Below, piece by piece: positions 11,284 to 28,353 of a DNA stretch of 64,000 nucleotides. The position numbers and the translations under genes were made by a program. Each line of letters begins with the position of its first letter. The first letter of the stretch is position 1. The notes under the pieces are model-generated. The model was not told the origin of the DNA. It was given only the letters and a program-made list of their open reading frames with translations, and searched no databases. The stretch is from Fermentimonas sp. (GTDB taxonomy: Bacteria > Bacteroidota > Bacteroidia > Bacteroidales > Dysgonomonadaceae), in the NCBI GenBank assembly GCA_028709385.1, contig JAQVXD010000001.1, positions 124,001-188,000 of the forward strand, written 5' to 3'.

Positions 11284-13209
11284 TTACTCTAACTCATCTG
11301 TCCATATTTTTACGACTGCATCACTTGGCATTCGCCAAGCACCACGCGGGGAAAGATTGACTGTTCCCACTTTAGGACCGTCGGGCATACATGAACGTTT
11401 GAATTGTTGTGAAAAGAATCTTTTGTAATATATCTTCAGCCATTTAAGGATCTCTTCTGATGAATATTTTTCAGCAAAAGCCTGATTCGCCATAAATAAT
11501 ATACGTTTTGGGCTGTCACCATAGCGAATCATACGATGAAGGAAAAAATCGTGAAGTTCATAAGGGCCCACAAAATGTTCTGTTTTCTGGGCAATCTTAC
11601 CTTCATTATCAGCGGGAAGAAGTTCTGGACTGAAAGGTGTATCCAGAATATCATGTACTATTTTACCGGGAGTATCTTCAAGCTGAGAGTCCGCAATCCA
11701 ACGTACCAGAGAAGCAACCAAAGTTTTCGGAACTCCGCTGTTTACAGCGTACATCGACATATGATCGCCATTGTAGGTTGCCCATCCTAATGCAAGTTCA
11801 GACATATTTCCGGTTCCAATAACAAGTCCCCCTACCTTATTCGCATAATCCATTAATATCTGAGTACGTTCCCTTGCCTGACTGTTTTCGTACGTAACAT
11901 CATGTTTGGAAGGGTCGTGGCCTATATCATTAAAATGCTGATTAACCGCATCCACTATCGATATCTCTTTAACGGTTACACCGGCTGATTCCATGAGTGA
12001 CACAGCATTTGAGTATGTCCTGTTTGTTGTTCCGAGTCCGGGCATAGTTATTCCATGAATATTTTCACGTGGATAGCCCAGCAAATCGAAAGTCTTAACA
12101 ACTACCAGGAGTGCCAGTGTAGAATCAAGTCCGCCCGAAACTCCTATTACAACTTTATCTACTCCTGTATGCAATAATCTCTTGGCAAGCCCGTGTGTTT
12201 GTATATTAAAAAGATCCGAGTAACTTTCATTCTCAACTTTTTTTCCAGGAATAAATGGATGAGGATTAAAATTACGATACATCCTTTTTGGGTATACAGG
12301 ATCGGGGAAACAATCAATTTCAGTTACATTTCCTGATGAAGAGGAAATAATATTTGTATTAACAAGTTTATCGTGCCTGATGGCAGTGATGTCAATATCA
12401 GCAATAATAATTTCACTGTCAAGTGAAAAGCGTTTTGACTCTGCAAGCAAAGTGCCGTTCTCAGCAACTATACATGCACCTGAAAATACCAGATCAGTTG
12501 TTGATTCACCAACTCCTGCAGAAGCGTATACGTACGCTGAGCTACACCTTGCAGATTGCTGCAATACCAGAGATTTGCGGTATCTGTATTTGCCAACCAG
12601 TTCATTACTTGCCGAAAGATTGAAAATAATATCTGCATCCTGCATGCCTGGTTCAGAAGAGGGTGGCAGAGGTGTCCATAAATCTTCACATATCTCAATT
12701 CCAAAATTTCCATAAGGAGTGGTAAATACCATTCCCTCTGATGAAATTGGTATGCTTTCGTTGTTTATCTCGACAGAATATTCATCTGCTACGGTTCCCG
12801 GAGTGAACCATCTCTTCTCCTGAAATTCATTGCTGTTGGCCAGATAAGTTTTAGGAACGATACCGACAATGCCATCACTTGAAAGAACAGCTGCCACGTT
12901 GAACAGGCTATTCTTAATCTTAAGTGGCAATCCAACTATAACAATGATTTTCTTTTTATTATCTTTTATAAACTCGGATAGGTTGATCAGAGATGAGAGT
13001 GCCTTCATTTGAAGTGTTTCCTGAAAAAAGAGATCACCGCAACTGTAGGAGGTAATGCTGAGTTCGGGGAAGCAGAGTATCTGTACATCCTCATTGATTG
13101 CCTGCTCTATTACAGATTTTATTTCACTTGTGTTGAAGTCGCAGTCTGCAACTCTTAGTTTAGGCGCTGAAGCAGCAACCCGAATAAAACCAAGATCATT
13201 AATGTTCAT
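11284..13209 (-). CDS. nadE: Glutamine-dependent NAD(+) synthetase
   Basis: ORF 11284..13233; likely start MNINDLGFIRVAA. Nitrilase-type domain (CFPELSITSYSCGDLF, GIEICEDLW) plus NAD synthase P-loop (VIGVSGGLDSTLALLV, GTGNMSELALGW). Confidence 0.95.
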   Translation of the reverse strand: MNINDLGFIRVAASAPKLRVADCDFNTSEIKSVIEQAINEDVQILCFPELSITSYSCGDLFFQETLQMKALSSLINLSEFIKDNKKKIIVIVGLPLKIKNSLFNVAAVLSSDGIVGIVPKTYLANSNEFQEKRWFTPGTVADEYSVEINNESIPISSEGMVFTTPYGNFGIEICEDLWTPLPPSSEPGMQDADIIFNLSASNELVGKYRYRKSLVLQQSARCSSAYVYASAGVGESTTDLVFSGACIVAENGTLLAESKRFSLDSEIIIADIDITAIRHDKLVNTNIISSSSGNVTEIDCFPDPVYPKRMYRNFNPHPFIPGKKVENESYSDLFNIQTHGLAKRLLHTGVDKVVIGVSGGLDSTLALLVVVKTFDLLGYPRENIHGITMPGLGTTNRTYSNAVSLMESAGVTVKEISIVDAVNQHFNDIGHDPSKHDVTYENSQARERTQILMDYANKVGGLVIGTGNMSELALGWATYNGDHMSMYAVNSGVPKTLVASLVRWIADSQLEDTPGKIVHDILDTPFSPELLPADNEGKIAQKTEHFVGPYELHDFFLHRMIRYGDSPKRILFMANQAFAEKYSSEEILKWLKIYYKRFFSQQFKRSCMPDGPKVGTVNLSPRGAWRMPSDAVVKIWTDELE

Positions 13210-13219
13210 TACTGTAGTC

Positions 13220-15103
13220 TTATTTATTTTCAACCTTTTCCTGAGATATCACCTCCATCTTATAATTCCATCTATTGAAATATAGATTTTCCTTTTTAGT
13301 TTCAACTTCACCCCGTTGAAAATCTACAGTCTCACTCCTTGGGAATTGTTTTGCAGGATAGAATTTGCCTGAAAAATCGTTGTTGATGTACAACCTGTAT
13401 GAATCGATACCTGACATAAAGAAACTTCTGCCTGTGCTATTATTTAGTGGCTCACCTCTGCCAAAAGAAACATCTACCGGTATCCAGCCAACGCCTTCAA
13501 AATAGACTTCAACCCAATCATGCAGATTAACTTCGCCGGGGTGAGTCATCCAACCGCTCTGCCATCGAGCGGGTATTCCTTTGTAACGCAGCATATTTAT
13601 CAAAAGAAGTGCTACCTGCCCACAATCGCCTTTTTTATTTTCAAGAACATATTCCGGAATATCAGGTATTGTTGAATACTCAAGAGCACTTGCCCAGGGG
13701 AAATTTTCTGTAATATAATTATATATAGACTTTAAAGATTCTATCTCAGTTTTGTCATAACGGGTTATACTGTCGGTCAGACTCCTGATATTATCTGAAA
13801 AATGTGTGTGTGGAGGTTTTTCTGAAGTGTATTTTTTATAAAGATCTGACTTTTTATCATATGGTTTAGGGGTGAGTTGGTTCAAATCATACCATTCGCC
13901 ACGAGATGTGAAAGTAAACTCTGCAGAAAAACTAACCGGCTCTCCTTCCTTAGCAGTCTGTTGCATATAAATAGAAGTGTGATCTGTTTTATCATCTGAT
14001 AATATATAGTCGTTTTGTGAAACACTGATAAGTTCAACGTTTGTTTGGCGACCCACATCTTTTCTCGGAAATGGCAGCCATGCTTTCACGAGTTCCCCCT
14101 CTTTTACTTCTCCCTCCGGCACCGTAATTGTATATCTCAAGTGGGTTGTTATTTCCGGTAAGTTATATTTGCCGATTATTTCAGTTTGTGATAACTCATC
14201 AAGATGATTGTCTAAAGTATGTTTTGCACCTGACTCTGCACTTTTCACCGGTCTGTTTATCAGTTTACGTGCTTCTGCATCAATTCTGAAAATATTTGGT
14301 GCAGCATTGCGGAAATATCTTTTCTGTCCGTCAATTATTCTGAATTCAAGAGTACCGGTTTCCTCCCATTGGTTCAGTTGTTCTTCAGTTGGAGTGAAAT
14401 TCTGATTATCTTGAATCCATTTTAAAATATCTTCTCTGCTTCTGTTGAAATCAAGTGAAACTCTTCTTTGCAACTCCTCTGAACTGAGTGTGCACTGGCA
14501 TAGCTTATCAGTGAATAAAATGCCGTTGAGATGGTCATATTCATGCTGAAAAATAACCGAAGTGAAGTTATCTTTTCTGCTGTACCCTTCCAGGCGCTCT
14601 TTTATAAGTAAGCCTGCTTCGTTAAAATATTCGACTTCAATCCATGGATATCGTATAGAATTTCCGCTTATTTCAGGGATTGAAAGGCAACCGTCGCGCT
14701 CAAAGCAGACTGTTTCATCGGGATGATTTACTATTTTTGGGTTTATTGCAATCTGCACCGGATGTTCAGGATGATCAATTCTTGTGAACAGGAAAATATT
14801 CTTTAGAACACCAACCTGAGGTGCAGCAATACCTACACCGCCTGAATTATATAAAGTGGTTTGAAGTCGTTTTATGATCAACTTTAAACTTTCATTCCCA
14901 GTAATAGAGTCTTCATCTATATCCTCTGATTGCATTCTTAGAATCAGAGAATCAACCTTGTCTGTTGTCTGAAGAATCCTTAAAGGAGTGCTCTCATCGC
15001 CACTGTGTATAATTTCCAATTCTCTTTCCGTGAATGATTGAGAAAATATCAAAGTAAATTGAGTAGAAAATAATATTATGCAAAACAGAGCTTTGAGATT
15101 CAT
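13220..15103 (-). CDS. Predicted exported peptide deformylase domain fused to transglutaminase-like domain
   Basis: 627 aa single ORF; N-terminal hydrophobic signal (MNLKALFCIILFSTQFTLIFSQ); PDF motifs GGVGIAAPQVG, DGCLSIPE, QHEYDHLNG; C-terminal transglutaminase-like motifs KKGDCGQVALLLINMLRYKGIPARWQSGW, NLHDWVEVYFEGVGWIPVDVSFG. Confidence 0.88.
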   Translation of the reverse strand: MNLKALFCIILFSTQFTLIFSQSFTERELEIIHSGDESTPLRILQTTDKVDSLILRMQSEDIDEDSITGNESLKLIIKRLQTTLYNSGGVGIAAPQVGVLKNIFLFTRIDHPEHPVQIAINPKIVNHPDETVCFERDGCLSIPEISGNSIRYPWIEVEYFNEAGLLIKERLEGYSRKDNFTSVIFQHEYDHLNGILFTDKLCQCTLSSEELQRRVSLDFNRSREDILKWIQDNQNFTPTEEQLNQWEETGTLEFRIIDGQKRYFRNAAPNIFRIDAEARKLINRPVKSAESGAKHTLDNHLDELSQTEIIGKYNLPEITTHLRYTITVPEGEVKEGELVKAWLPFPRKDVGRQTNVELISVSQNDYILSDDKTDHTSIYMQQTAKEGEPVSFSAEFTFTSRGEWYDLNQLTPKPYDKKSDLYKKYTSEKPPHTHFSDNIRSLTDSITRYDKTEIESLKSIYNYITENFPWASALEYSTIPDIPEYVLENKKGDCGQVALLLINMLRYKGIPARWQSGWMTHPGEVNLHDWVEVYFEGVGWIPVDVSFGRGEPLNNSTGRSFFMSGIDSYRLYINNDFSGKFYPAKQFPRSETVDFQRGEVETKKENLYFNRWNYKMEVISQEKVENK

Positions 15104-15168: not shown

Positions 15169-15918
15169 TTAAATTCTCATCGTACGTGACAGTTGAATTA
15201 TTTCAGGTAGCTTCTGAAGAAGTTCTGTCATAGAGTGTAAAAGAAGTGAAGCGCCTGCTTCAATAAGTTTTTCATCACTTAGTAATCCTGTGTTAACAGC
15301 GATAGTGAAAATTCCTGCAGCTGAAGCGGATTCTATGCCAAGAGGAGCATTCTCAATTACTATTGCCTGATTGGGACTTAACATTCCTCCTTTTTCCAGA
15401 CCCATAAGATATGGCTCTGCGTCAGGCTTTCCCTTTATTACATCATAAGCGGTCACCATTGTTTCAGGTGTGAAGACATCAGGAAAATGAGTGTCAAGCC
15501 TATCGAGTAAAGAAGGTTGACCTGATCCGGTGACCAGTATTGGTTTCAATCCCTGTTTTTTAACAAAGCTCAGGACCTCTTTTGCACCAGGTAAAGTTGC
15601 ATTGTCATTAATCTGTTGAAACAGTTCTGTTTTACGTGCATAGATGTTGTCTTTTTCTTCTTTTGTTGCACTTCTTTTGAATTCTCTTTCAGTTATTAAG
15701 TTTATTGTAGATTTTCCAACTCGCCCTTCATGAAGATAAAACTCAACGGGTTTAGTTGACTTATATCCAAACTCCTCCATTGTTTCTTGCCATGATTTTG
15801 CATGTGCAGGCATAGAGTCATAAAGAACCCCATCCATATCAAATAGTACCGCCTGTAAATCAAAATTTGTATAATTATGTTTTCTGAGATAATTTTCAAA
15901 CTGTTGACGCATGTTCAT
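15169..15918 (-). CDS. HAD-superfamily hydrolase, beta-phosphoglucomutase-like
   Basis: 249 aa; AVLFDMDGVLYDSMPAHAKSW, VTGSGQPSLLDRL, KGKPDAEPYLMGLEKGG, VIENAPLGIESASAAGI. Confidence 0.88.
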   Translation of the reverse strand: MNMRQQFENYLRKHNYTNFDLQAVLFDMDGVLYDSMPAHAKSWQETMEEFGYKSTKPVEFYLHEGRVGKSTINLITEREFKRSATKEEKDNIYARKTELFQQINDNATLPGAKEVLSFVKKQGLKPILVTGSGQPSLLDRLDTHFPDVFTPETMVTAYDVIKGKPDAEPYLMGLEKGGMLSPNQAIVIENAPLGIESASAAGIFTIAVNTGLLSDEKLIEAGASLLLHSMTELLQKLPEIIQLSRTMRI

Positions 15919-20791: not shown

Positions 20792-21201
20792 TGAAAATGC
20801 AGTATTTTATTCAGGGTGGGGACTTCAGTGCGGGTGGCCGTGCCAGTACTGAAGTTAAAAGTATTATTAAGCAGTTTAATATTTCGCCTGAAAAAATAAG
20901 ACGTATAGCAATAGCTCTTTACGAAGCAGAGATGAATGTTGTGGCTCATGCTTTTAAAGGAAAGATGGATGTGGATCTGAGGCCTGATCATATTCGCGTG
21001 GTGTTTATAGACGAAGGGCCGGGCATTGAGGATATTGATAAGGCGATGGAGGAGGGTTTTTCCACTGCCTCTGATGAAGTGCGTCAAATGGGCTTCGGTG
21101 CGGGAATGGGCTTACCTAACATCAAAAGAAACTGCGACGAAATGTTGTTATCCTCTGTTCCCGGTAAGGGAACAAGACTTGAGATTAAAGTTTTATTTTA
21201 A
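20791..21201 (+). CDS. Anti-sigma-factor-like (RsbW/SpoIIAB-type) GHKL ATPase
   Basis: 136 aa; N-box EAEMNVVAHA, G1 DEGPGI, G2 GFGAGMGLPNIKR. Confidence 0.82.
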   Translation: MKMQYFIQGGDFSAGGRASTEVKSIIKQFNISPEKIRRIAIALYEAEMNVVAHAFKGKMDVDLRPDHIRVVFIDEGPGIEDIDKAMEEGFSTASDEVRQMGFGAGMGLPNIKRNCDEMLLSSVPGKGTRLEIKVLF

Positions 21202-21205
21202 AGCT

Positions 21206-22558
21206 ATGAAAGACAGGAACTATACACACTCGATTCAGATCGATATAAATAAATGTATCGGCTGTTCACACTGTATGCATGTATGTTCTACACAGGCAAT
21301 AAGAATTGTTGAAGGTCACGCTTTAATTCAGCCTGAAAGATGCATTGATTGCGGAGAGTGTTACAGAGTCTGCCCTCAGCGAGCCATCTATGCAAGGGAT
21401 GACGGACTGAGGTCTGTTGAGAAAACAGGCTGGAAAATAGCTCTTGTACCTTCAGTATTTATTGGTCAGTTTTCATCAGAATACTCTGCATCACAGGTTC
21501 TGAATGCGGTTAAACAATTGGGATTTGACGAGGTTTTTGAGGTTGAGCATGCAGTTGATTTCATAAAAGAAGTTTACGAAAATTTAGCGACAGAAGATCT
21601 GCCCCGTCCTCTGATCAGTTCTTACTGTCCTGCAGTAGTGCGGTTAATTCAGGTAAAATACCCTTCTCTGACACACAATATAATAAGACTAAAAGCACCT
21701 CACGACTTAGCGGCCATATATCTTAGGAAGTCTAAAAACAGTATTCACAACTATCGCTCAAATATTCACATCTACTATATTACCCCTTGTGCAGCAAAAA
21801 TTGTGGCAGCCATTTCACCTGTTGGTGAAGATAAATCAGCAATTGACGGTACGATCAACATGACAGAAGTATTTAACCGTACATCTGCAATATTGATTGG
21901 CGAGAAGAATACTGGAATGCACAAAACAATTGCTGATATGAGTCCTGATTCTGTTAACTGGTCGCTGTCAGGTACAGAAAAGAAATATTTCTCCGGCAGA
22001 AGCCTTGCTATCGACGGAACAGACAACGTAATTCAGTTTCTTGAAAAATTGGAATCGGGACACATTAAAGATATCGACTTTCTTGAAATGAGAGCATGCG
22101 ATCAAGGGTGCGCAGGAGGTATTTTATGTCCGGGGAATAGGTTCCTTACTGTGGAAAGACTGGAGCAGAGACAGAAAAGACTGGAAAAGCTGAAATCCCA
22201 AAACTGTGGTAAAGTTGTCAACCCGTTAATGGATTACAGTGAGGTCCTGCATGACTATTCGGGAGTAGACCCTGTTTACCCTCGTGACGGTTTGCTGCTT
22301 GATGATGATATGGAAAAGGCATTAATTAAACTGCAGCGTATAAACCGCCTGGAGTCATACTTACCCGGATTTGACTGCGGGGCTTGTGGTGCTCCCGGCT
22401 GCAGAAATCTTGCTGAGGATATTGTAAAAGGAAGAGCAACAATTTCACACTGTGTATTTGTACAGCGGATCATGGAGAAGAATTATAAACTGAGTCCTGA
22501 TCAGGCTTTTATTGTAATTGAGAAGATCTGGGGCAAGGGAAGATTAAATAAACTATAA
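21206..22558 (+). CDS. HydS-like divergent [FeFe]-hydrogenase (putative sensory) with N-terminal 2x[4Fe-4S] and C-terminal [4Fe-4S] domain
   Basis: ORF track 21026..22558, start trimmed to MKDRNYTHSIQIDINKC after the ATPase stop. CIGCSHCMHVC, CIDCGECYRVCP; H-cluster-like motifs SSYCPAVV, TPCAAK, ACDQGCAGG; C-term FDCGACGAPGCRNLAEDI. Confidence 0.85.
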   Translation: MKDRNYTHSIQIDINKCIGCSHCMHVCSTQAIRIVEGHALIQPERCIDCGECYRVCPQRAIYARDDGLRSVEKTGWKIALVPSVFIGQFSSEYSASQVLNAVKQLGFDEVFEVEHAVDFIKEVYENLATEDLPRPLISSYCPAVVRLIQVKYPSLTHNIIRLKAPHDLAAIYLRKSKNSIHNYRSNIHIYYITPCAAKIVAAISPVGEDKSAIDGTINMTEVFNRTSAILIGEKNTGMHKTIADMSPDSVNWSLSGTEKKYFSGRSLAIDGTDNVIQFLEKLESGHIKDIDFLEMRACDQGCAGGILCPGNRFLTVERLEQRQKRLEKLKSQNCGKVVNPLMDYSEVLHDYSGVDPVYPRDGLLLDDDMEKALIKLQRINRLESYLPGFDCGACGAPGCRNLAEDIVKGRATISHCVFVQRIMEKNYKLSPDQAFIVIEKIWGKGRLNKL

Positions 22559-22566
22559 CAGTTAAG

Positions 22567-22917
22567 ATGGAAAAGAATCTGAAGTTTTTTATAAAAGAAT
22601 TAGGTTTAGAATGCAAAGCTGGTGAAGAGTTGCTCAACAGGGTCCCGAAAGGAGCCTATGTTTCTGATTTACTAAGCGATGTTATCGGAAAAGCTCAGGA
22701 GGATATGATATGGATAACAACGCAGGCACATCGAAATATTATAGCTGTAGCCAGTTTGAAAGAGTTGAGTGCAATAATAGTTGTTAATGACAGAAAAGTT
22801 GATGATGATGTGCTTGAAAGTGCAGACTCAGAAGGGGTTGTAGTGCTTTCTACTAAAGAGGCGGCATTTGAAACAGCCGGCAAACTATATTGCATTCTAT
22901 ATGACATAGATACATAA
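22567..22917 (+). CDS. DRTGG-domain protein (second paralogue)
   Basis: 116 aa; YVSDLLSDVIGKAQEDMIWITTQAHRNIIAVASL, IIVVNDRKVDDDVL, VVVLSTKEAAFETAGKL pattern parallel to first copy. Confidence 0.7.
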   Translation: MEKNLKFFIKELGLECKAGEELLNRVPKGAYVSDLLSDVIGKAQEDMIWITTQAHRNIIAVASLKELSAIIVVNDRKVDDDVLESADSEGVVVLSTKEAAFETAGKLYCILYDIDT

Positions 22918-22942
22918 TAATTGTTAAAGTAGTACAATTGTA

Positions 22943-23656
22943 ATGAGCTTTTTCAATGCAGATCTGCATATTCATACATGTCTTTCTCCCTGCGGAGATG
23001 AGGACATGAGTCCGCGAAACATTATTCGCATCGCGAAAGAGAGAGATATGCAGATAATTGCAATTACAGATCACAACACTACCCGTAATGTGAGAGTGTG
23101 TATGGAGCTTGGTATGCGAAAAGGAGTTTTTGTAATTCCGGGTTGTGAAGTAAATACTGTCGAAGAGGTACATTGTCTCTGTTATTTTCCCGACCTGCAA
23201 GTACTGGATAAGTTTCAGCAATTTCTGGACAGCCGAATAGCAGACCTAATAAATGATCCTGAAAAATTTGGCTATCAGGTAGCAGTAGACGAGAGTGATG
23301 TGATAATATACGAAGAAGAGCGATCTTTATTTACCGGAATTATGGATGGAATAGATGCTCTTGCAGAAGAGGTGCATAAGTTGGGGGGTATATTTGTACC
23401 TGCACATATAGACAGGCCTGTTAACAGTCTTTTAAGTCAACTTGGATTCATACCGCCGGACTTGAAGTATGATGCTCTGGAGGTTTCAAAACGTACTCTA
23501 CTGAGTGATTTTGAAAAAATGCATCCTGAACTAGCCGGAGAATTTTTTCTGCGAAATTCTGACGCACATTATACCGATGATATTGCTAAAGCTTATAACA
23601 GGTTTGAAATGGAAGATGCAAACTGGGAGTGCTTCAAATTACTGTTCAGCAAGTAA
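22943..23656 (+). CDS. PHP-domain phosphoesterase
   Basis: 237 aa; ADLHIHTCLSPCGDEDMSP, IAITDHNTTRN, FVPAHIDRP, NSDAHYTDDI. Confidence 0.85.
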   Translation: MSFFNADLHIHTCLSPCGDEDMSPRNIIRIAKERDMQIIAITDHNTTRNVRVCMELGMRKGVFVIPGCEVNTVEEVHCLCYFPDLQVLDKFQQFLDSRIADLINDPEKFGYQVAVDESDVIIYEEERSLFTGIMDGIDALAEEVHKLGGIFVPAHIDRPVNSLLSQLGFIPPDLKYDALEVSKRTLLSDFEKMHPELAGEFFLRNSDAHYTDDIAKAYNRFEMEDANWECFKLLFSK

Positions 23657-23682
23657 TGATATATTTTATTATATAAGATAAA

Positions 23683-24246
23683 ATGGTTGAAATGGCAATG
23701 CATATGATGGATGTTGCGCAAAACTCGATAAGGGCTGATGCTAAAAATATATATATCAACTTCTTCGAGGATTGTGATAATAACATATTGCTGTTCAGTG
23801 TTGAAGATGACGGCAAAGGTATGAGTGATGAGGAATTGAGTCGTCTTGAAGATCCTTTTTTTACAACTAGAACAACACGAAAAGTAGGACTAGGGATTCC
23901 TTTCCTGAAGATGACATGCGAGCAGAGTGGCGGATCTTTTACTGTTAAGTCTGAAGATGGAGTTGGTACTACAGTTGAAGCAACTTTCCGGACAGATAAT
24001 CCCGATTGTTTGCCCGTTGGTGATATTGCCGGTTATCTTACAATGTTGCTTGTAGCAAATCCTGATATCAGGATAAGGTTCTCTTACAAGATTAACAATG
24101 AGGAATTCACGCTTGATAACGCTGAACTAAGAGAACAGGAGATCGAGCTGCAACAGCCGGGAATGGCCGGTGTAATAAAGGCTTTCATAAAAGATAATCT
24201 TGAAGAACTTTACTCTAATCGCAAAGTGAAAAGTTTTTTATGTTGA
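23683..24246 (+). CDS. Stand-alone histidine-kinase-type GHKL ATPase domain protein
   Basis: 187 aa; MMDVAQNSIRADA (N-box), VEDDGKGM (G1), TRKVGLGIPFLKMTCEQSGG (G2); no DHp/sensor region. Confidence 0.82.
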   Translation: MVEMAMHMMDVAQNSIRADAKNIYINFFEDCDNNILLFSVEDDGKGMSDEELSRLEDPFFTTRTTRKVGLGIPFLKMTCEQSGGSFTVKSEDGVGTTVEATFRTDNPDCLPVGDIAGYLTMLLVANPDIRIRFSYKINNEEFTLDNAELREQEIELQQPGMAGVIKAFIKDNLEELYSNRKVKSFLC

Positions 24247-24310
24247 ATTTAAAAAAAAGACTATGGCTGATAATTGGTAACAAATCGTTTAACCTTTAAA
24301 AATTAAATAT

Positions 24311-24706
24311 ATGAGAGAAATAAAAACATTAGCTGACCTTAAGAAAAAACAGGAGGAGATGAGAAGCAGAATAAAATTACGGGACAATGCAGAAAATCCC
24401 GAATCTCTTGTTCAGGTAAAGGTTGCCATGGCAACTTGTGGTATCGCTTCAGGTGCTAAAGAGGTGATGGAATACTTTGTTGATGAACTTGATAAAAGAT
24501 CAATCCGTGCAATTGTTACACAGACCGGCTGTATGGGGTATTGCTATGCGGAACCTACCGTAGAAATTACTCTGCCGGGACAAGACCCTATTGTGTTTGG
24601 TTATGTTACCGTCAAAAAAGCAGGGGATATAATCGAACATTATATTAAAGAAGGGGAACTGGTGGATGGCATCATTCCTCAGAATTATAATACCATTAAA
24701 TCTTAA
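24311..24706 (+). CDS. Thioredoxin-like [2Fe-2S] ferredoxin, hydrogenase associated
   Basis: 131 aa; VAMATCGIASGAKEVMEYF ... TQTGCMGYCYAEPTVEI; upstream of HydB. Confidence 0.83.
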   Translation: MREIKTLADLKKKQEEMRSRIKLRDNAENPESLVQVKVAMATCGIASGAKEVMEYFVDELDKRSIRAIVTQTGCMGYCYAEPTVEITLPGQDPIVFGYVTVKKAGDIIEHYIKEGELVDGIIPQNYNTIKS

Positions 24707-24717
24707 TATGACTGTAT

Positions 24718-26544
24718 ATGAGCAAGTATAAAATGCATATTTTAGTCTGCGCCGGAACCGGATGCAGTTCTTCTGAAAGTAATCTGGTCTGTGAAATACT
24801 GATTGATGAAGTTGAGAGAAAAGGACTGGGCGGTGATGTGCAGATTATTCGTACTGGCTGTTTTGGTTTTTGTGAAAAGGGGCCAATAGTGAAAGTTTTG
24901 CCTGATAATACCTTTTACACAAATGTGAAACCGGCAGATGCTAAAGAGATTGTTGATGAGCATATAATTAAAGGCCGTAAAGTCTATCGTTTGCTTTATA
25001 CAGATCCTGAGTCAGGAGAGCATTTACCTGACTCAAAGCACATGGGGTTTTACCAGAAGCAAATACGTGTAGCACTTCGGAATTGTGGTACAATCGACCC
25101 TGAGAATATTGATGAAGCTATTGCAAGAGATGCTTATCAGGCATTGGGTAAGGTAATCACTGAAATGGGACCTGATGTGGCCATTAACGAAATAAAGTCT
25201 TCAGGTTTAAGAGGTCGAGGAGGTGCAGGATTCCCGACCGGCCTCAAATGGGAGATTGCCCGTAAAAACGATGCTGATCAAAAGTATGTAGTCTGCAACG
25301 CTGATGAAGGTGACCCGGGTGCATTTATGGATCGTTCCATTCTTGAGGGTGATCCCCATTCTATTATTGAAGCGATGGCTATTTGCGGATACTGTATAGG
25401 AGCCAGTAAAGGATTGGTCTATATCCGTGCTGAGTATCCTCTAGCGGTAAAACGACTGAAAATTGCTATTGCTCAGGCACATGAATATGGTTTACTTGGT
25501 GATAATATATTTGGTACAGATTTCAGTTTTGATATCTCTTTAAAATATGGTGCCGGAGCTTTTGTATGCGGTGAAGAGACAGCACTCATTCATTCCATGG
25601 AAGGAAAGAGAGGCGAGCCTACCAACAAACCGCCTTTTCCTGCTCAAAGCGGTTATCTCGGGAAACCTACCAATGTTAATAACGTGGAGACTTTCGCCAA
25701 TATTCCGGTCATAATTCTTAAAGGAGCAGAGTGGTTCTCTTCAATTGGAACTGAAAAGTCGAAAGGCACCAAAGTATTTGCACTCGCAGGAAAAATTAAT
25801 AATGTAGGTTTGATTGAGATCCCAATGGGTATTACTCTCCGTGAGATAATTTATGAAATCGGAGGTGGTATCAAAAATGGAAAGAAATTCAAGGCAGTAC
25901 AAACTGGAGGACCTTCAGGAGGTTGCCTGACAGAGAAGCATCTTGATATTCCAATTGATTATGAAAGTCTGACAGCTTCAGGCTCTATGATGGGATCCGG
26001 AGGAATGATCGTACTCGATGAAGATGATTGTATGGTGTCAGTGGCTAAGTTTTATCTGGAGTTTATAGTTGACGAGTCATGCGGTAAATGCGCTCCTTGT
26101 CGTATAGGCAACAAGCGTATGCACGAGACTCTCAAAAGAATAACGGACGGTAAAGGCACACAGGAAGATTTGGATAAGCTTAAAAACCTCAGCTATGTTA
26201 TTAAGGATACATCTTTATGCGGACTCGGACAGACTTCGCCCAATCCGGTTCTCTCTACCATGGAACATTTCATGGATGAGTATAATGAACATGTAATCGA
26301 TAAAAAATGCCGGGCAGGGCAGTGCAGCAATCTGCTCTACTACGTAATCTCAGAAGAGGAGTGTATCGGTTGTATGGCTTGTTTGAGAGCTTGTCCTACA
26401 CACGCTATAAGTGGTGAGAAGAAAGAGGCACATGTTATTAATCAGGAGATATGTATAAAATGCGGGGCGTGTATGGAAAAATGCAAATTCGACGCCATCA
26501 CGCTGAGGAGCGACTACCCGAGGGTGTCTGTTCCAATAGTATGA
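24718..26544 (+). CDS. hydB: Electron-bifurcating [FeFe]-hydrogenase beta subunit HydB (NuoF-like)
   Basis: 608 aa; N-term [2Fe-2S] Trx-like domain, GLRGRGGAGFPTGLKWE, NADEGDPGAFMDR, ESCGKCAPCRIGNKRM, C-term CIGCMACLRACP and CIKCGACMEKC. Confidence 0.93.
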   Translation: MSKYKMHILVCAGTGCSSSESNLVCEILIDEVERKGLGGDVQIIRTGCFGFCEKGPIVKVLPDNTFYTNVKPADAKEIVDEHIIKGRKVYRLLYTDPESGEHLPDSKHMGFYQKQIRVALRNCGTIDPENIDEAIARDAYQALGKVITEMGPDVAINEIKSSGLRGRGGAGFPTGLKWEIARKNDADQKYVVCNADEGDPGAFMDRSILEGDPHSIIEAMAICGYCIGASKGLVYIRAEYPLAVKRLKIAIAQAHEYGLLGDNIFGTDFSFDISLKYGAGAFVCGEETALIHSMEGKRGEPTNKPPFPAQSGYLGKPTNVNNVETFANIPVIILKGAEWFSSIGTEKSKGTKVFALAGKINNVGLIEIPMGITLREIIYEIGGGIKNGKKFKAVQTGGPSGGCLTEKHLDIPIDYESLTASGSMMGSGGMIVLDEDDCMVSVAKFYLEFIVDESCGKCAPCRIGNKRMHETLKRITDGKGTQEDLDKLKNLSYVIKDTSLCGLGQTSPNPVLSTMEHFMDEYNEHVIDKKCRAGQCSNLLYYVISEEECIGCMACLRACPTHAISGEKKEAHVINQEICIKCGACMEKCKFDAITLRSDYPRVSVPIV

Positions 26545-26565
26545 TAAATTTAACTGTTTCTAAAA

Positions 26566-28353
26566 ATGAAAAATATGATTGAGCTTACAATAGATAAGAA
26601 AAAGGTACAGGTTGAAAAGGGCACCACAATTCTAAAAGCAGCCCGTAAAGCCGGAGTGGAAATACCAACACTTTGTCATTTCGAGTTGTGTGATATGGGA
26701 ATTGAAAATAAGCCGGGAGGATGCAGGATATGTGTAGTTGAGGTGGAAGGACGCAGAAACCTGGCTCCCTCATGCATCACTGAAGTTCAGGAGGGTATGG
26801 TTATTAATACTCATAATATCAGGGTGCTGAATGCAAGGACTACTGTGCTTAAACTGATAATTTCCGACCATCCTTTTGATTGCCTGGTATGTGCAAGGTC
26901 AGGACAATGTGAATTACAGAGTCTTGCCACACAGTTTAACATCCGTAGTCTCCCGTATGAGGGTGAACAATCAAGGTACAGAAAAGATACTTCGCCTTCT
27001 ATTATAAGAGACATTGATAAATGCATTATGTGCCGCAGATGCGAAATGATGTGTAATGAAGTGCAGACTGTTGGTGCACTTTCAGCTGTAAACCGTGGGT
27101 TTATGTCAGTAGTAGCACCTGCTTTCGAAATGAATCTTGAAGATTCTCCATGCACCTATTGCGGTCAGTGTCTTTCAGTTTGCCCCACAGGTGCGCTCAC
27201 AGAAGTGGATCATACAAATGATATTATACGTGCTTTAAGTGATTCATCCAAAACTGTTATCGTACAGACTGCCCCTGCAGTTCGTGCTGCTCTGGGTGAA
27301 GAGTTCGGTCTGCAGCCGGGAACATTAGTGACCGGTAAAATGGTATCGGCTTTAAAAGAGCTCGGATTTGATTATGTTTTTGACACTGATTTTAGTGCAG
27401 ATCTCACTATAATGGAGGAGGGAACTGAACTTTTGCAGCGACTGAAAGCTTATTTAGCCGGAGATACAGAAGTGCGTCTGCCGATTCTTACTTCCTGCTG
27501 CCCCGGATGGGTAAACTTTTTTGAGCATAATTTCCCCGATCTGATTGATGTACCTTCAACAGCAAAATCACCTCAGCAAATGTTTGGAGCAATTGCCAAA
27601 ACGTACTTTGCAGATAAGATAGGAGTAAACAGAAAAGATCTTATCGTGGTGTCTATCATGCCGTGTATAGCTAAGAAGTATGAATGTCAGCGGGATGAGT
27701 TTAAGGTGGACGGTAATCAGGATGTAGACTATTCAATTTCTACCCGTGAACTGGCTGCATTTATAAAAGAGGCTAATATTGATTTTCTGAATCTTCCTGA
27801 TGCAGATTTTGATGACCCGCTGGGTGAGTCAACCGGTGCAGGTGTAATATTTGGTAATACAGGAGGTGTAATTGAGGCTGCCTGCAGAACTGCCTATGAA
27901 ATTTATACAGGTAAAAAGCTCGAAAATGTGGTGTTTGATAATTTGCGGGGAATGGAAGGTATACGCTCTGCGAAGGTTGATTTTGACGGAATTGAGCTTA
28001 ATATAGGTATTGCACACGGATTGGGTAACGCCCGCAAACTTTTGGATGAGGTAAGGGCAGGTACTTCAAAATATCATGCAATAGAGATAATGGCCTGTCC
28101 CGGTGGCTGTATTGGTGGCGGCGGACAGCCTTATCATCACGGAAACAGTGAGATACTCAGTAAACGGGCAGCTGCAATTTACACAGAGGATGAGCGTAAG
28201 ACAATTCGCAAATCGCATGAAAACCCGTCAATCATAAAGCTGTATAAAGAGTTTCTGGGTGAACCCGGAAGTCACAAGGCGCACAGTCTGCTACATACGG
28301 AATATTTTCCAAAAAGTAATGAGGTTACACTTCATTTGAACGGTGAAATATAA
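26566..28353 (+). CDS. hydA: [FeFe]-hydrogenase catalytic subunit HydA
   Basis: 595 aa; [2Fe-2S] PTLCHFELC...GGCRIC, DHPFDCLVCARSGQCELQ, two [4Fe-4S] sites, H-cluster motifs TSCCPGWVNF, MPCIAKKYE, MACPGGCIGGGGQP. Confidence 0.95.
   Translation: MKNMIELTIDKKKVQVEKGTTILKAARKAGVEIPTLCHFELCDMGIENKPGGCRICVVEVEGRRNLAPSCITEVQEGMVINTHNIRVLNARTTVLKLIISDHPFDCLVCARSGQCELQSLATQFNIRSLPYEGEQSRYRKDTSPSIIRDIDKCIMCRRCEMMCNEVQTVGALSAVNRGFMSVVAPAFEMNLEDSPCTYCGQCLSVCPTGALTEVDHTNDIIRALSDSSKTVIVQTAPAVRAALGEEFGLQPGTLVTGKMVSALKELGFDYVFDTDFSADLTIMEEGTELLQRLKAYLAGDTEVRLPILTSCCPGWVNFFEHNFPDLIDVPSTAKSPQQMFGAIAKTYFADKIGVNRKDLIVVSIMPCIAKKYECQRDEFKVDGNQDVDYSISTRELAAFIKEANIDFLNLPDADFDDPLGESTGAGVIFGNTGGVIEAACRTAYEIYTGKKLENVVFDNLRGMEGIRSAKVDFDGIELNIGIAHGLGNARKLLDEVRAGTSKYHAIEIMACPGGCIGGGGQPYHHGNSEILSKRAAAIYTEDERKTIRKSHENPSIIKLYKEFLGEPGSHKAHSLLHTEYFPKSNEVTLHLNGEI

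Follow-up and report, generated by a model that had tools for sequence, protein, structure and literature searches.

A predicted exported peptide deformylase fused to a transglutaminase-like domain in Fermentimonas sp.

The window analysed here is a stretch of 64,000 nucleotides of Fermentimonas sp. (contig JAQVXD010000001.1, positions 124,001 to 188,000), and it carries a single gene in which a peptide deformylase (PDF) domain is joined to a transglutaminase-like (TGc) domain. The features of the locus, in positions of the window, are as follows.

15169..15918, minus strand: HAD-family hydrolase, the upstream syntenic flank (PF13419; flank conserved in siblings).
13220..15103, minus strand: PDF-TGc fusion gene, 627 aa (ORF, Pfam, G008 homologue, dN/dS).
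15041..15103, minus strand: predicted signal peptide, residues 1-21, with a predicted SPI cut between IFS and Q (inspection, hydrophobic N-terminus, Q-rule).
14495..14977, minus strand: peptide deformylase domain, residues 43-203 (PF01327, invariant columns in 12 exported relatives, AF2, Foldseek).
14174..14488, minus strand: helical linker, residues 206-310 (alignment to stand-alone TGc proteins, helices in the model).
13889..14170, minus strand: beta-rich domain preceding the TGc core, residues 312-405 (AF2 secondary structure; conserved in TGc relatives).
13472..13783, minus strand: TGc core, residues 441-544, with C494, H528 and D544 (PF01841, conserved triad, Foldseek 3isr).
11284..13209, minus strand: glutamine-dependent NAD+ synthetase (NadE), the downstream syntenic flank (PF00795 and PF02540; flank conserved in siblings).

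The fusion ORF begins with ATG, the plus strand of 13220..15103 being full of stops, and the ATG of NadE lies about 10 bp past its stop codon. A sequence-only reading of this DNA had placed the ORF at the right coordinates and had left out the strand. Both halves fall into known fold families: Pfam matches Pep_deformylase (PF01327) at E 2e-33 (115.6 bits; cut-off 22.8) and Transglut_core (PF01841) at E 4e-22 (79 bits; cut-off 23). An AlphaFold2 model from a 36-row alignment has a mean pLDDT of 90.1, and with this model Foldseek finds PDFs (1lme, rmsd 1.8 Å, target TM 0.87), which places the first half in the PDF fold, together with 3isr, a putative cysteine protease of Cytophaga, for the TGc half. 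The linker derives from the N-terminal part of a stand-alone TGc protein and has no signal peptide or lipobox of its own. An assembly chimera or a frameshift was ruled out, since G008, whose assembly consists of two contigs, has the complete fusion as well (76% identity).

Export of the fusion was called by inspection of the sequence and a hydropathy script, and the signal peptide is a predicted one. The N-terminus, MNLKALFCIILFSTQFTLIFS followed by Gln at +1, is compatible with a Sec/SPI signal peptide, and Gln directly after the cleavage site (the 'Q-rule') is a trait of most Bacteroidetes SPI substrates (PMC5837995). We predict that the fusion protein is sent out of the cytoplasm.

The PDF motifs quoted in the earlier reading are all present, as GVGIAAPQ (Q96), DGCLS (C139) and HEYDH (H187, E188, H191), and are invariant in 12 exported relatives; Pfam, motif columns and the 1lme match agree with its assignment. 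The E-to-D change in DGCLS, to which it drew attention, is real but no oddity, being common to many Bacteroidales members of the exported clade described below. The window PDF shares with type I peptide deformylase (PF01327; the housekeeping Def of Thermotoga maritima, 1lme) the fold, the three motifs, the metal ligands and the catalytic Glu; it differs in belonging to a separate clade whose members carry a signal peptide or lipobox, in DGCLS, in extra residues before HEYDH, in its fused domain, and in scores below NCBIfam equivalog cut-offs, that on TIGR00079 falling just short (103.2 bits against 103.95). A pair of cysteines, C133 and C202, which 12 exported PDFs from the genus and its nearest relatives all share and which the genome's own cytosolic def lacks, is a possible disulfide. 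Between G000 and G008, Nei-Gojobori estimates put dN/dS at 0.11 in the PDF, at 0.05 in the TGc core and at 0.09 over residues 23-627, ratios that are rough because dS is above 1; both halves evolve under purifying selection, and together with the motifs these values rule out a decayed PDF.

The earlier reading had also proposed looking for a separate housekeeping def, and the genome has one: a 186-aa cytosolic protein lacking a signal peptide, encoded beside RuvX in a cluster of the order ABC ATPase-RuvX-def, whose TIGR00079 score of 140 bits clears the cut-off. With this second def and its own predicted signal peptide, the window protein does not fit the description of a cytosolic, ribosome-associated Def, and the second def and the tree below rule out a housekeeping PDF with a mis-called start. 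Sibling carriers likewise have a separate cytosolic def. Some siblings also encode another PDF of cytosolic type, about 172 aa long, which forms its own well-supported group (L146, L148, L149, L150).

A profile built from 12 relatives was used for a systematic survey of Bacteroidota. It matched 60 of 394 Bacteroidales genomes (about 15%) at E <= 1e-30, a few of the matches being cytosolic-type, and at E <= 1e-28 it matched 14 of 398 genomes across the phylum, about 10 of them exported-type. One contig scan of genomes gave four relatives only; the four named relatives are MAGs (three Prevotellaceae, one Bacteroidales), which by their sample codes are probably from insect guts. About 57 exported Bacteroidota PDFs have a hydrophobic N-terminus, most of them with a lipobox or Q-rule site: a crude regular expression finds a lipobox-like pattern in 31 of those inspected, and others have a Q-rule site. 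In an IQ-TREE phylogeny of 85 PDFs a 97/89 branch separates the exported proteins from the cytosolic ones, the sole intruder (L094) being a contig-end fragment of an exported-type protein. Judged from sequence, then, the window PDF belongs to a well-supported clade of PDFs bearing predicted signal peptides or lipoboxes, apart from the cytosolic PDFs. A plasmid or phage origin was rejected, the matches there being only cytosolic-type PDFs at under 40% identity.

The three motifs are kept in nearly all exported PDFs; seven members of family f30 (L056, L058-L063) have EGDLS, with Asp in place of the Cys metal ligand, and keep the other motifs. At the loci inspected, the exported stand-alone PDFs had no constant gene neighbour. 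Other architectures occur, namely DUF1684 joined to an exported PDF (L055:1432-2688), a lipoprotein with tandem PDF domains of which the first is degenerate and the second intact (L072, with relatives of similar length, 380-391 aa, in L073, L074 and L080), PDFs with N-terminal regions that by inspection are beta-rich or Ig-like and in which Pfam names no domain (L120-L124), and a lipoprotein PDF that continues in frame into a TadA-like deaminase (L119:1919-3037), which is probably a stop-loss fusion. The sequence-only reading of an exported, motif-complete PDF joined to a papain-like domain is supported, but export is not special to the fusion, because most members of the large exported PDF clade stand alone. 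The literature searched, with most subscription journals outside its scope, yielded no description of exported, secreted or periplasmic PDFs or of PDF-TGc fusions, and the family, widespread in Bacteroidota, is apparently undescribed.

A search for the PDF-TGc architecture, also suggested by the earlier reading, found the full fusion again, but in two of 39 genus genomes only (G000 and G008, 76% identical), with siblings holding one half or neither; G004 has, at the edge of a contig, a TGc end of 92% identity. The genus has a syntenic slot of the order HAD-X-NadE-APH/RapZ, in which X is a stand-alone exported PDF in G003 and G005, a PDF remnant in G023, and a stand-alone lipoprotein TGc in G015, G022, G025, G035 and G006; G022 retains a PDF at another locus, and G015 apparently also has a PDF remnant. 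In a tree of the neighbouring APH/RapZ protein, G000, G004, G008 and G023 group together (100/99). By this distribution of sequences the fusion is rare and young: it is recent and dispensable, since siblings have one half only or neither, and the remnants in G023 and apparently G015 indicate that the PDF itself is dispensable.

The TGc triad that the earlier reading put forward, GDCGQ (C494), LHDW (H528) and PVDVSF (D544), is borne out by the PF01841 match and by conservation in TGc relatives. With the bacterial transglutaminase-like cysteine proteases (PF01841; 3isr of Cytophaga hutchinsonii) the window TGc shares the triad, the beta-rich domain before the core, and predicted export; it differs from them in sitting behind a PDF and in having lost its own lipobox. 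The signal peptide that TGc relatives carry is likewise absent, and export of the TGc half therefore depends on the signal peptide of the PDF. This is the sole TGc of the genome. Elsewhere in Bacteroidales the family is an operon neighbour or fusion partner of the enzymes of YkfB/YkfC muropeptide catabolism (NlpC/P60 endopeptidase and L-Ala-D/L-Glu epimerase; PMC2954226). G020 and G031 encode this TGc in one protein with SH3b and NlpC/P60 domains, the gene adjoining one for an MR_MLE epimerase; in G058 the TGc, epimerase and NlpC/P60 genes adjoin, and a YkfC-like and/or MR_MLE epimerase neighbour (1.5-kb flanks) is present at about 10 of some 22 TGc loci outside the genus. The TGc family is thus connected to YkfC/YkfB-type muropeptide enzymes by operon and by direct fusion, and these operon partners suggest the kind of link to cell-wall peptides that the sequence-only reading had offered as one possibility. 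In the window genome, unlike these relatives, the TGc does not adjoin ykfBC; a YkfC-like lipoprotein gene and an epimerase with a twin-arginine-like leader, a pair predicted to be exported, lie 33 kb from the fusion, and a PDF with YkfBC is not reported in the literature found.

Our preferred explanation, to which we give an even chance, is that this deformylase works outside the cytoplasm, where it unblocks peptides or N-termini that carry formyl-Met, and that a peptidase or amidase of envelope peptide catabolism is tied to it. With catalysis, substrate, metal, localisation and coupling as we infer them, the protein would be exported by Sec, cut before Gln22, and act as a soluble two-headed enzyme outside the cytoplasm. 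The PDF half would remove formyl groups from N-formyl-Met peptides or N-termini missed by the cytosolic PDF, leaving a free amino end; its substrates might be formylated signal-peptide fragments, the N-out ends of membrane proteins, or peptides of lysed neighbours. The TGc half would serve as a cysteine peptidase or amidase and, like its family, act beside YkfC/YkfB-type muropeptide enzymes in the envelope, and the fusion would couple deblocking with peptide breakdown. It counts against the explanation that muropeptides are not known to carry formyl groups, and the two halves therefore need not share a substrate. A formylated substrate outside the cytosol is plausible: SRP keeps nascent membrane proteins from being deformylated, and both signal peptides and membrane proteins of the N-out type have been proposed to retain fMet (PMC5454389). 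Also in its favour, YkfC-type enzymes require a free N-terminal residue (PMC2954226). Against this explanation stand the PDF remnants, the lack of a constant neighbour of exported PDFs at the inspected loci, the unexplained matter of how an extracytoplasmic PDF would obtain its metal, and the separation of the halves in most siblings; because each occurs there without the other, coupling can be useful at most, not obligatory.

The same separation bears on the alternative that survives best, that two neighbouring genes of one slot ran together by a neutral accident and that the domains act independently. One slot carries PDF alone, TGc alone or the fusion, and stop-loss fusions do occur, as L119 joins an exported PDF to a deaminase that should be cytosolic; the fusion nevertheless persists in two species, purifying selection acting on both halves, and its TGc relies on the PDF for a signal peptide, so that we consider an accident unlikely, if not far-fetched. 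A little less probable still is that the exported clade serves the cell's own envelope as a second round of maturation, acting on SRP-shielded N-out inner-membrane proteins and signal peptides, the TGc fusion being incidental. The substrate source is predicted by PMC5454389, the PDFs are mostly stand-alone and lack fixed partners, and most carriers are independent of TGc; but many members are lipoproteins that may sit at the outer membrane, and a presence as patchy as about 15% of sampled Bacteroidales is hardly that of a core maturation step. Recruitment of the PDF fold, with TGc, to a different small amide in the extracytoplasmic space, such as one on cell-wall peptides, would accord with the YkfB/YkfC connection, with a subclade set apart by DGCLS, a 6-residue insert before HEYDH and the invariant C133/C202, and with the narrowly missed equivalog cut-off; we think it improbable, as the canonical catalytic residues are all kept, the structure closely matches true PDFs, and stand-alone PDFs exist without any TGc. 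Removal of host-detected fMet signals, raised by the earlier reading as formyl-peptide receptor evasion, can be set aside as very improbable, for although purified PDF has been proposed to be able to inactivate formyl peptides (PMC6563851), nothing here points to it: no virulence context is seen in the window, exported PDFs are limited to a minority of Bacteroidota, and the four named relatives are the presumed insect-gut MAGs.

The standard account places deformylation in the cytosol, on the ribosome, and peptide deformylase is known only from inside cells. The exported clade in Bacteroidota suggests that formyl groups are removed outside the cytoplasm too. For the phylum as a whole we see a slightly less than even chance of a genuine extracytoplasmic deformylation system, in which the secreted and lipoprotein PDFs would strip leftover formyl groups from foreign peptides, from signal peptides or from membrane proteins of the N-out type and to which the window fusion would add an envelope peptidase or amidase. 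What happens to formyl groups beyond the cytosol is still an open question (PMC5454389), and an exported, motif-complete PDF clade in many Bacteroidales makes it testable by knock-out and N-terminomics; such enzymes also matter for how many formyl peptides reach animal hosts and for where PDF inhibitors may bind off target. Elsewhere in the window, inspection of translations at 21026-28353 finds a run of iron-sulfur and [FeFe]-hydrogenase/NuoF-like ORFs, which suggests an anaerobic fermenter.
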